64,000 nt of DNA from an uncultured SAR86 cluster bacterium. GTDB taxonomy: Bacteria; Pseudomonadota; Gammaproteobacteria; Magnimaribacterales; Magnimaribacteraceae. Position 1 is the first letter of the stretch. Each line of letters begins with the position of its first letter. Location of the stretch: NCBI GenBank assembly GCA_902532015.1, contig CACAGI010000002.1, positions 1 to 64,000 of the forward strand, read 5' to 3'. Under the pieces are notes generated by a model that searched no databases, was not told the DNA's origin, and saw only the letters and a program-made list of their open reading frames with translations. The translations under genes and the position numbers were made by a program. Shown in pieces: positions 12,783 through 16,367 of this stretch.

Positions 12783-14867
12783 ATGGAAAGTTATAAAAAA
12801 ATAATAAATTTAGGAGATCAAGAGATCATCTTAGAAACTGGCAAGGTCGCAAGACAAGCCACTGGAGCAGTATTAGCAACTTGTGGAAATACACAAGTTC
12901 TAGCAACGGTAGTAGTGGGAAAAGCTCCAGGTGAGCATCAGGACTTTTTCCCATTAACTGTTAATTACCAAGAAAAAACTTATGCAACAGGGAAGATTCC
13001 TGGCGGTTTTTTTAAAAGAGAAGGCAGACCAACTGAAAAAGAAACATTAACTTCTCGACTAATAGATAGACCTTTAAGACCTTTGTTTAATGATGATTTT
13101 CTTTATGAAGTTCAGGTTATTTGTACAGTCGTATCTTCGGATAAAGATGTGGATCCAGATATCCTATCTTTCATAGCTGCATCTGCTGCTATCGGCATAT
13201 CTGGTTTACCTTTCAACGGTCCTTTGGGTGCGGTTAGAGTAGGTTTTGTAGAAGGTCAATATTGCTTAAATCCAAGAAGAAGTGAGCTAGAAGATTCTTT
13301 GCTGGATATGGTGATAGCAGGAAGTGATTCTGCGGTAATAATGGTCGAATCAGAAGCCAAAGAACTATCTGAAGATCAGATGCTTGGGGGTATTCTTTTT
13401 GCGCACCAAGAAATGCAAGTAATAATAAGTGCTATTAAAGAAATGGCTTCAGAGGTAGGGAAACCAACATTTGAATATGAACCAAAGACTTTGGATAAAG
13501 ATCTAGTAGATACTATCAAAGATTCTTATTCAGATTTAATTTCTGACGCTTACCAAATTCGAGATAAACAAGAAAGAGTTCAAACTCTCAATCAGTTAAA
13601 AGAAAAAATTACAGAAGATCTTGTTAATGAAGAAGAAGATTCTCCAAAAAGCTCGGATCTAATGGATGTTTTCAAAAAAATAGAAAAAACAATAGTTAGA
13701 TCCAATTTAATAAAGGGTGAGCCAAGAATAGATGGAAGAGACTTAGATACTGTAAGACCTCTCTTTATCGAAGCTGGAGTTTTGAAGAATACTCATGGAT
13801 CTGCTTTATTTACTCGAGGAGAGACACAAGCACTTGTTGCTGCTACTTTAGGTTCTCCCAGGCAGGCACAGCTTATTGATGCTTTAGAAGGAGAGTTTAA
13901 AGACCAATTTATGCTTCATTATAATTTTCCTCCTTATTCTGTAGGGGAAGCAGGATTCATGTCGGGTCCAAAAAGAAGAGAGATTGGCCACGGGAAACTA
14001 GCAAGAAGGGCTTTGGAGGCTGTTTTACCTTCTCCAGAAGACTTTCCATATACCATTAGAGTAGTTTCAGAGATCACTGAATCAAATGGTTCAAGTTCAA
14101 TGGCTAGTGTTTGTGGATCAAGTTTAGCTCTTATGGATGCAGGAATCCCTATGAAAGGTCCGGTTGCTGGAATAGCTATGGGTCTAGTTAAAGAGGAGGA
14201 TGGCTTTGCTGTAATTACAGACATACTTGGGGATGAGGATCATCTTGGCGATATGGACTTTAAGGTTGCAGGAACTGAAGAAGGTATTACTGCACTTCAA
14301 ATGGACATAAAGATTGACGGTATTACTGAAGAAATTTTTGATGTTGCGCTTGAAAAAGCCCAAAACGCAAGAGCTATCATTTTGAATAGTATGAATGAAG
14401 TCCTCTCTGCTTCTAGAGAAGAATTATCAGATAAGGCCCCTCAGGCAGTAGTAATCCAAATAAATACAAAAAAAATACGAGACGTTATAGGCAAAGGTGG
14501 AGAAACTATTAGAGGCTTAACGGAAGAGACCGGAGCGATTATAGAAGTAGAGGATAGCGGCAAGGTTACAATTTATGGAGACACACCTGAATCCAGAGAG
14601 AGTGCTTTAAGGAGGATAGAAGAAATAACTGCCGAGCCTGAAGTAAATAAGATTTATACAGGAACGGTAGCAAATATAATGGACTTTGGTGCATTTGTAA
14701 CAATCATGCCTGGAAGAGACGGTTTAGTGCATGTTTCTGAGATTTCAGAGGAAAGAGTAGAGAATGTCTCAGATTATTTTGTTGAAGGCGAAGAAGTAAA
14801 GGTAAAAGTTTTAGAGGTTGATAGGCAAGGTAAGATACGTTTAACCATGAAAGGATTAGAAGACTGA
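12783..14867 (+). CDS. pnp: Polyribonucleotide nucleotidyltransferase (PNPase)
   Basis: Phosphorolytic 3'-5' exoribonuclease and degradosome component. The 694-residue protein contains two RNase PH-like domains: the first with [22 protein letters not shown], read in parts, and the second with [11 protein letters not shown] and [16 protein letters not shown]. An alpha-helical linker separates them, followed by a KH domain ([13 protein letters not shown]) and an S1 domain ([15 protein letters not shown]). ATG 12783 follows an AGGAAAT Shine-Dalgarno sequence. An in-frame TTG at 12753 lies within the leader hairpin and was not used. Confidence 0.98.
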
Positions 14868-14890: not shown

Positions 14891-14939
14891 ATGGTAGATC
14901 AAGTTTGTTTTAATCAAAATCATCTAGTTAAATATGTAT

Positions 14940-14965
14940 GTCCAGATTTATCTGGGCGTTTGTTT
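14940..14965 (+). terminator. Probable terminator downstream of pnp
   Basis: GTCCAGAT (14940-14947) and ATCTGGGC (14950-14957) form an eight-base-pair stem with one G-T pair and a two-base spacer, followed by GTTTGTTT. The T tract is interrupted, so efficiency may be moderate. It separates the pnp operon from the small gene at 14986. Confidence 0.5.
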
Positions 14966-14985
14966 AGCTAATAAATGGGTGAAAT

Positions 14986-15204
14986 ATGAATGCTTTAAAT
15001 AATATAAGAGACATCATTGGATCTTTAACTGGAATCATAGTTTCTTTAGTTGCGTTGGGAGTTGCAGCTGGAGTAGTGTTTGGTTCTGGTGTTCCTTTTG
15101 TTGGTGGAGTTCTAGACAACTTACTTGGTCTTGTTAACACTTTAGGTGGAGAAGGCTTAGTAGGACTAATTGTTCTAGCGGTTCTGCTGGACATGTATAG
15201 ATAA
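14986..15204 (+). CDS. Small two-helix membrane protein, paralogue 1 (unknown family)
   Basis: I do not recognise this 72-residue protein. Two hydrophobic stretches (about 10-32 and 57-69) flank the polar segment FGSGVPFVGGVLDNLLGLV, followed by LGGEGL. The next small gene, at 15286, has the same core: FG-S/T-GVPF-x-GG-V/I-LDN, then LG-G/S-EGL. Conservation of this central motif between two otherwise divergent neighbours argues that both are real. The start is supported by GGGTGA seven bases upstream. A strong terminator follows, so it is probably a single-gene transcript. No signal peptidase site or peptide-export partner is visible. A structural membrane peptide or a bacteriocin-like peptide are both possible. 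Confidence 0.72.
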   Translation: MNALNNIRDIIGSLTGIIVSLVALGVAAGVVFGSGVPFVGGVLDNLLGLVNTLGGEGLVGLIVLAVLLDMYR

Positions 15205-15225
15205 GTCTCTTCTTAGCTATCATTG

Positions 15226-15261
15226 GAAAGGGGGCCGTAAAGGTACCCCTTTCTTTTTTTT
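15226..15261 (+). terminator. Intrinsic terminator after small membrane protein 1
   Basis: GAAAGGGG (15226-15233) pairs perfectly with CCCCTTTC (15246-15253) across a 12-base loop, followed by eight T. This is the strongest Rho-independent terminator in the window. It lies 22 bases after the first small gene and 25 bases before the second. Confidence 0.88.
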
Positions 15262-15285
15262 GGGCTAAAGTAAAGGGGGAGAAAT

Positions 15286-15519
15286 ATGTTAGATATGATG
15301 AACAGAGTTGGCAGTGCTTTGTGGGAAATCACAAAATTTTTGTCTTTAGTAGTTGCAGTTGCAATACTAATCTCAATGTTATTTGGTACAGGTGTCCCTT
15401 TCTTTGGAGGGATACTAGATAATACCAAATTAGTTATAGATGCTCTTGGTTCTGAAGGCCTTGGTTTAATTATTGCAATTATAATTATCCTTAGTGTTTG
15501 GAACTCTAGATCTAATTAA
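15286..15519 (+). CDS. Small two-helix membrane protein, paralogue 2 (unknown family)
   Basis: A 77-residue protein related to the one at 14986, with matching core FGTGVPFFGGILDN and LGSEGL. The first hydrophobic segment is about residues 16-34, the polar motif about 33-46, and the second hydrophobic segment about 60-71, ending in a short basic tail. An AGGGGGAG Shine-Dalgarno sequence sits just upstream of ATG 15286, the strongest seen in the window, implying high expression. Flanking terminators isolate it from both neighbours. I cannot name a function; the order pnp, paralogue 1, paralogue 2, hydrolase is not one I know. Confidence 0.75.
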   Translation: MLDMMNRVGSALWEITKFLSLVVAVAILISMLFGTGVPFFGGILDNTKLVIDALGSEGLGLIIAIIIILSVWNSRSN

Positions 15520-15575: not shown

Positions 15576-16367
15576 ATGGAAAATTTAGTTAATATAAAAG
15601 ATGGTATAAAGATAGGTTTAGCTGGTACGAGAGACCTTGAAGGAGATCTTTTCATTCCCCCGGGTGATGAAAAGAAGAGACCAGCTATTTTGATAGTTCA
15701 TGGAGGCGGCTGGAGGGAAGGAGACAGAAAGCAGTTAAGGGGATATGGCATATTATTAGCTAGAGAAGGATTTGTATGTCTTTGCAGTTCTTACAGGTTA
15801 TCTACAGAAGATATTTGGCCAGCTCAAATTCAAGACGTTAATTGTGCCATTCGATATTTAAAGTCAAATAGTGAAGATTTAGGCATAGATCCAGACCGTA
15901 TTGGCATAACAGGAAATTCAGCCGGAGGTCATTTATCTTTAATGGCTGGCCTGAAAGATTATGACAAAAATTTTGAAGGAGAGGGAGGTCATGCAGAGTT
16001 CAGCTCAGAAGTTAAAGCCATATGTGCAATATACCCGCCTGCAAAGATAAGAAAAATAGAGAATACCGACCCAATTATTGATGCTTACAGAATGCTCATG
16101 GGAGATGTAGATCAAGAAGAATATGACAAGGCTAGTCCTATTTTACAGATTAAAGAAGATTTTCCTCCTACGATGTTAGTACATGGTTCGTCAGATAGTG
16201 TGGTTAGGTTACAAGACTCAACAGACTTATATCAAAAACTGAAGGAAGAAAATATACCTGCAGAATTACATATCTTCTCTGAAGAAGATCATGCTTTTGA
16301 TTCAGCAAGAGGTTATGGGAGATCTGTTGCTGAACTACAACATCTATTCTTTAAGAAATATCTCTAA
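15576..16367 (+). CDS. Alpha/beta hydrolase, esterase/lipase type
   Basis: A 263-residue serine hydrolase of the BD-FAE/esterase-lipase group. The oxyanion motif HGGGW is at 42-46, the nucleophile elbow GNSAGG has Ser115, and the rest of the triad is likely Asp207 (HGSSDSVV) and His239 (EEDHAF). There is no signal peptide, so the enzyme is probably cytoplasmic. The substrate cannot be read from the sequence; carboxyl esters and short peptides are known substrates in this group. It stands alone between a terminator and a minus-strand block. No clear Shine-Dalgarno sequence precedes ATG 15576. Confidence 0.88.
   Translation: MENLVNIKDGIKIGLAGTRDLEGDLFIPPGDEKKRPAILIVHGGGWREGDRKQLRGYGILLAREGFVCLCSSYRLSTEDIWPAQIQDVNCAIRYLKSNSEDLGIDPDRIGITGNSAGGHLSLMAGLKDYDKNFEGEGGHAEFSSEVKAICAIYPPAKIRKIENTDPIIDAYRMLMGDVDQEEYDKASPILQIKEDFPPTMLVHGSSDSVVRLQDSTDLYQKLKEENIPAELHIFSEEDHAFDSARGYGRSVAELQHLFFKKYL

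Follow-up and report, generated by a model that had tools for sequence, protein, structure and literature searches.

A tandem pair of genes for small predicted membrane proteins in SAR86 bacteria, with an exchanged first member and relatives in marine viruses

Directly behind pnp in an uncultured SAR86 bacterium, two small adjacent genes, here called A and B, encode proteins built on the same plan. The window, i.e., the whole stretch of DNA that was analyzed, comprises 64,000 nucleotides of contig CACAGI010000002.1. A reading made from the sequence alone had proposed that the pair represents an abundant but undescribed family of membrane peptides, expressed separately and at a high level, and had raised bacteriocin-like or holin-like activity as possibilities. 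The question posed by this locus is therefore what kind of family A and B belong to, and what such proteins may do in bacteria and in the viruses in which relatives of A were found.

The A-B locus and its expression signals

The features of the locus, in order along the window, were as follows.

14905..14933, plus strand: putative A-B promoter, TTGTTT-17 bases-TTAAAT; both elements largely conserved among 19 SAR86 loci, match to the consensus weak
14940..14957, plus strand: hairpin of the 5′ leader, GTCCAGA-TTTA-TCTGGGC, followed by conserved TTTGTTTA; covariation in the SAR86 leader alignment
14977..14982, plus strand: GGGTGA, the ribosome-binding site of A; almost invariant among 19 relatives
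14986..15204, plus strand: gene A, 72 aa; predicted long membrane helix, VPFVGG loop, amphipathic helix, and short helix
15225..15254, plus strand: hairpin and T-run in the A-B spacer; the strongest terminator-like structure of the window
15275..15281, plus strand: ribosome-binding site of B, GGGGGAG, read from the sequence
15286..15519, plus strand: gene B, 77 aa; predicted helical hairpin about a VPFFGG loop
15541..15557, plus strand: terminator-like hairpin after B, GGCACC-TTTTC-GGTGTC followed by a T-run, found by hairpin scan

Both open reading frames, of 72 and 77 codons, were confirmed on the plus strand, between pnp (stop at 14867) and a gene for an alpha/beta hydrolase (15576-16367). 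The two proteins are homologous to each other (BLASTP 4e-11, 32% identity across 56 residues). The proposed common motif, FG-x-GVPF-x-GG-x-LDN, was found in both of them, as was LGxEGL, which reads LGGEGL in A and LGSEGL in B. When the whole 1.16 Mb assembly was scanned for the DNA pattern of FG-S/T-GVPF, only two occurrences were detected, namely A and B. Codon-level conservation was clear, with dN/dS values of 0-0.23 for A and 0.03-0.12 for B, corresponding to purifying selection on both genes. The ribosome-binding sites that the sequence-only reading had assumed were also recognizable upstream of A and B.

AlphaFold2 predicted helices at residues 3-32, 39-55, and 58-71 of A (pLDDT 80, pTM 0.40) and at residues 2-33 and 40-76 of B (pLDDT 85, pTM 0.53). 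Together with hydropathy, these helices are compatible with small inner-membrane proteins. In both proteins, basic residues lie near the ends, chiefly at the C-terminus, while the middle is acidic, and for this reason both ends are probably cytoplasmic.

The putative promoter would give a transcript start at about 14940, and the leader hairpin may form the 5′ end of this transcript; alternatively, or in addition, it may serve as the terminator of pnp. In known cases, a 5′ hairpin acts as an mRNA stabilizer. Among the 19 SAR86 loci, two-sided changes were observed in 6 of the 7 pairs of this hairpin and 99% of the cells were paired, a result reached by none of 500 shuffles.

Each gene had been said to be followed by a terminator that is the best in the window. 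For the structure behind A this was borne out, as its hairpin and T-run reached -17.9 kcal/mol, the top value of the window scan (runner-up, -13.5), whereas the hairpin behind B, with a core of -7.3 kcal/mol, is real and moderate but not outstanding. Neither was picked up by a standard terminator scan, for which the limits set on loop and tail were probably responsible.

The claim of separate expression is doubtful and was borne out only in part. An intergenic hairpin was present in all A-B spacers examined, both in SAR86 and in SAR92/Porticoccaceae, its sequence having been completely turned over between families. A T-run followed it in most members of the window's family and of SAR92/Porticoccaceae; in distant SAR86 families, the hairpin was kept, the T-run was short or missing, and B started a few to about 20 bases further on. 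In the window itself, only about 24 bases separate the T-run after A from the start of B. This short gap, and the retention of the hairpin in distant families where no clear T-run follows, make it most likely that transcription of B depends on read-through from A. Compared with separate expression, an operon whose internal hairpin serves for attenuation or processing, so that A would be more abundant than B, fits better. High abundance of the proteins appears plausible, considering the 5′ hairpin, the ribosome-binding sites, the strong terminator, and the near-consensus promoters of the Thioglobaceae-like and viral copies described below.

Distribution in marine bacteria and viruses

The description of the family as undescribed was upheld by the searches performed. 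Scores of the A/B family exceeded the curated cut-off in neither Pfam nor NCBIfam, and no family match was obtained in PDB, PADLOC, or PHROG. A fold search with A retrieved nothing from PDB and a single viral hit, which was meaningless. Of the 46 viral members compared with PHROGs, none matched at E ≤ 0.01, and phrog_31219 and phrog_13833 were hit only weakly, and not significantly, by one or two of the viral proteins (E 0.25-0.67). No match was found for A by tblastn among 50,697 deposited phages or among plasmids, nor for four viral members among the same phages, in searches whose low-complexity filter may hide hydrophobic matches. A literature search, with most subscription papers outside its reach, yielded nothing on the family. 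A PADLOC match of a single member at E 0.037 was regarded as chance, as were the Rfam matches in the region, all of which remained below the gathering score.

Besides viruses, several groups of marine gammaproteobacteria yielded homologues. In a survey of 61 relatives, the family was present in 24 of the 26 SAR86 genomes that were at least 90% complete. A and B were adjacent in the SAR86 families sampled, in most of the genomes having both, and the pair is kept throughout the SAR86 order. The pair with its intervening hairpin was also observed in SAR92/Porticoccaceae, in two other neighborhoods. Wider sampling, with 369 genomes at the level of the class and 398 at that of the phylum, added almost no further relatives.

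A-type genes without an ordinary B occurred in two more marine gammaproteobacterial groups, represented by loci L021-L035 and by the family of genome G368, which from its gene content looks like Thioglobaceae. In this Thioglobaceae-like family, 22 of 40 genomes carried an A-type gene, with one to three copies in tandem, located between ubiA and dapD where the neighborhood was read. The gene was absent from most members of genus g251 and from all sampled members of genus g119, whose genomes are small (1.0-1.6 Mb), mostly closed, and possibly those of symbionts; of the remaining genera, most were positive. In Thioglobus-like loci (L111:8229-9291 and L096-L100), two or three tandem A-type genes were seen, each with a conserved TTGACA promoter and a strong terminator.

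In L021-L035 (e.g., L024:5278-5907), A is followed by a gene whose product, about 210 aa in length, has a membrane helix at either end and a long coiled coil. When its ends were joined without the coiled coil and compared with the B profile, hhalign gave a probability of 94% (single-comparison E 8e-8), as against 28% for the unjoined protein. It is possibly a form of B with a coiled coil inserted in the loop.

Two candidate functional links were tried and rejected. A fixed partner identified by gene neighborhood was dismissed, as the surroundings vary by lineage (pnp, ubiA-dapD, mutY, and others), and so was a link to proteorhodopsin, since rhodopsin was present in 3 of the 40 Thioglobaceae-like genomes as against 22 of 40 for the family.

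Viral relatives were obtained from IMG/VR by three profile scans, which gave 3 relatives with the window-type profile, at least 117 with a profile built on viral members together with distant SAR86 ones, and at least 170 with the Thioglobaceae-like profile. Eighty matches were retained from each of the two larger scans and then merged, resulting in at least 160 viral contigs and 84 distinct A-type proteins, with one copy per contig stretch fetched; some short contigs could be host fragments, and the viral assignment is firm only where named phage genes lie nearby. A pattern scan with the B alignment revealed no viral relatives of B.

The viral A-type genes were located between nrdA and nrdB, before the terminase gene, by the tail tube gene, near phoH, and by portal and head genes. 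Such unrelated positions imply more than one virus lineage and a moron-like placement. In 81 viral members, a sigma-70 match of at least 11/12 was found within 110 bases upstream of 27% of the copies, compared to 8% of the other open reading frames of the same contigs, and a terminator-like hairpin with 8 or more pairs was found for 30%, compared to 4% (Fisher p 4e-12), although these members are mutually related and the counts are thus not independent. Viral A-type genes with their own promoter and terminator in unrelated positions resemble "moron" cargo, and promoters of the sigma-70 type suggest that they are expressed early in infection, not late.

Two side observations concern the neighbors of the viral genes. 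In three viral loci (L104, L106, and L108), the gene right after the A-type gene also had a TTGACA...TATAAT-like promoter, and several host-type promoters thus seem to be used by these viruses. In the viral contigs L157-L198, a small gene of 103-130 aa adjoins the A-type gene inside the nrdA-nrdB interval; its PHROG is without function, and by our reading of the sequence it may be HesB/IscA-like.

Exchange of A at a fixed locus

It was evident that A does not follow the divergence of its surroundings. Within one genus, pnp was 97-99% identical, whereas identity of A went down to 47%, and several A types (MNALN.., MMENAK.., MGEMMDRIM.., and MDRMMSM..) were distinguished. The Spearman correlation with pnp identity was -0.10 for A and 0.72 for B among 24 genomes of the window's family. 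In the genomes used for the control comparison, A was again uncorrelated with pnp (-0.09), whereas B reached 0.69 and similarly long windows of the next gene 0.66-0.88. The jump in divergence begins at the start codon of A, behind a leader that is about 90% identical; between genomes G022 and G010, for example, the last 60 leader bases were about 93% identical, and A dropped to 48-63%.

The pnp tree was rejected for A, the likelihood dropping by 100 when it was imposed, as against 75 for B and 27-44 for control windows of similar length. The control windows also rejected the pnp tree mildly (p 0.005-0.024), indicating that recombination is general in the region and that A is extreme rather than unique.

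In six comparisons, dS of A, its synonymous divergence, was 0.25-0.47, as against 0.6-2.7 for rpsO and pnp, while in the others it was 1.0-3.1. Codon bias alone was rejected as the cause of the low values on account of these remaining comparisons; since low dS appeared only in some of them, allele exchange explains it better, and the low dS is probably another expression of that exchange. A is a mosaic allele at a fixed SAR86 locus, exchanged and diversified far more than its neighbors.

In the family tree, which was built from 157 sequences and 72 columns and whose deep forks are mostly uncertain, the B proteins of SAR86 and SAR92 formed a single clade, and the viral protein L156 fell near B. 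A of distant SAR86 families stood next to viral copies. The Thioglobaceae-like host copies (row S86A_L087 being the G368 gene) were nested within a virus-dominated clade, which suggests virus-to-host transfer. A recent transfer between viruses and SAR86 was not seen, the closest viral copies being about 50-56% identical to SAR86 alleles, and a type II allele had no viral match.

Possible functions and known systems

The reading preferred here, tentatively and with clearly less than even confidence, is that A and B form an inner-membrane hairpin for virus-host or virus-virus exclusion, with A as the variable part. According to this proposal, the host would constitutively make A as the major component and B as its minor partner, the latter by read-through of the leaky hairpin. 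Both proteins would lie in the inner membrane with their ends in the cytoplasm and would expose the VPF-GG loop and the amphipathic stretch at its outer face. There, much like a superinfection-exclusion protein, they would act on the entry of a virus or on its takeover of the cell, and A would set the specificity. Viral copies would be transcribed by the host polymerase early in infection and would keep out competing viruses or substitute for the host protein.

Allele diversity and the viral reservoir favor exclusion or recognition, with which the small, predicted two-helix plan also agrees, whereas near-universality in SAR86 favors a physiological protein and fits a core gene better than an immunity gene. 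Nor is exclusion helped by the distance of the nearest viral copies from the SAR86 alleles, a type II allele that lacks a viral counterpart, the absence of a PADLOC family match, or a tree with many forks unresolved and control windows that are themselves in mild conflict. A core physiological membrane protein, serving in membrane stress, energy coupling, or complex assembly and carried by viruses to sustain the infected cell, much as hli and psbA are by cyanophages, with exchange as a by-product of virus-mediated recombination, is the strongest rival, though a doubtful one. Presence in nearly all well-sequenced SAR86 genomes, purifying selection, the strong-expression signals, the near-consensus promoters of the several copies that one Thioglobaceae-like genus has in tandem, and wide viral carriage all agree with it. 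Divergence of A to 47% between congeners is, however, unlike usual core genes, the tree suggests the virus-to-host direction for the Thioglobaceae-like copies, and the rhodopsin link is absent. Local recombination hot-spotting beside a conserved leader, acting without selection on an ordinary unstudied membrane protein, could account for the position of the divergence jump and for the conflict in the control windows; it is improbable in view of the size of the effect, the several divergent A types within one genus, and the viral carriage.

Viral copies could also be class II holins or lysis regulators, the host copies being domesticated or neutralized relatives. The two-helix size and plan conform to this, and some viral copies lie right before the terminase gene, a position occupied by lysis genes in certain phages; but viral positions vary, no endolysin was among the named neighbors in the 20 neighbor clusters scanned, and the promoters point to early expression. 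This explanation is judged unlikely, and the holin-like activity raised earlier found no support for the host copies, which have their own expression signals. A secreted toxin, such as a two-peptide bacteriocin, would be in keeping with a tandem homologous pair, small-residue helix motifs, and allele diversity and is very improbable: neither an evident leader peptide of the double-glycine type nor an export or immunity gene was seen, the neighbors being pnp and the alpha/beta hydrolase gene, and the genes are conserved through an order and occupy a single site in the window's family. The suggestion of bacteriocin activity was therefore not sustained.

The broader claim, that a new family of viral exclusion or immunity hairpins resides in the core genome of dominant uncultured ocean bacteria as a highly expressed two-subunit system with A as its swapped specificity subunit, must be considered rather unlikely as a whole. 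If it held, the arms race between SAR86 and its viruses would have a hot spot in a gene of only 72 codons. SAR86, which is largely uncultured, ranks with SAR92 and Thioglobus-like bacteria among the most abundant bacteria of the ocean, and the encounters of these groups with viruses are poorly understood. Here, a small gene that was found in none of the phage and protein-family collections searched is common to abundant hosts and several uncultured virus lineages, and A displays the sharpest allele exchange among the genes compared at the locus. Such a gene offers a concrete, small target for the study of virus exclusion in the open ocean and possibly a marker linking viruses to hosts.

Imm of phage T4 and other superinfection-exclusion proteins are very small phage-encoded inner-membrane proteins of about two helices, transcribed early by the host polymerase. 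A-type proteins are likewise very small and phage-encoded, occurring in at least 160 viral contigs with terminase, portal, tail tube, RNR, and PhoH neighbors. In contrast, they have no sequence match to a described exclusion or defense family and occur in bacteria as a tandem pair conserved across an order, for which an exclusion role is proposed here. Class II holins are short two-helix phage membrane proteins, as the viral A-type proteins are predicted to be, but the latter have early-type promoters, variable positions, conserved chromosomal copies, and no match to a PHROG lysis family. The hli and psbA genes encode membrane proteins common to cyanobacteria and cyanophages and are exchanged between them, hli being also small and multicopy. 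A and B differ from these in their two-helix plan and non-photosynthetic host, without a chlorophyll-binding Pfam match or any sequence relation; the A-type gene, apparently exchanged between its carriers as well, shares with them that it encodes a predicted membrane protein common to marine hosts and their viruses.
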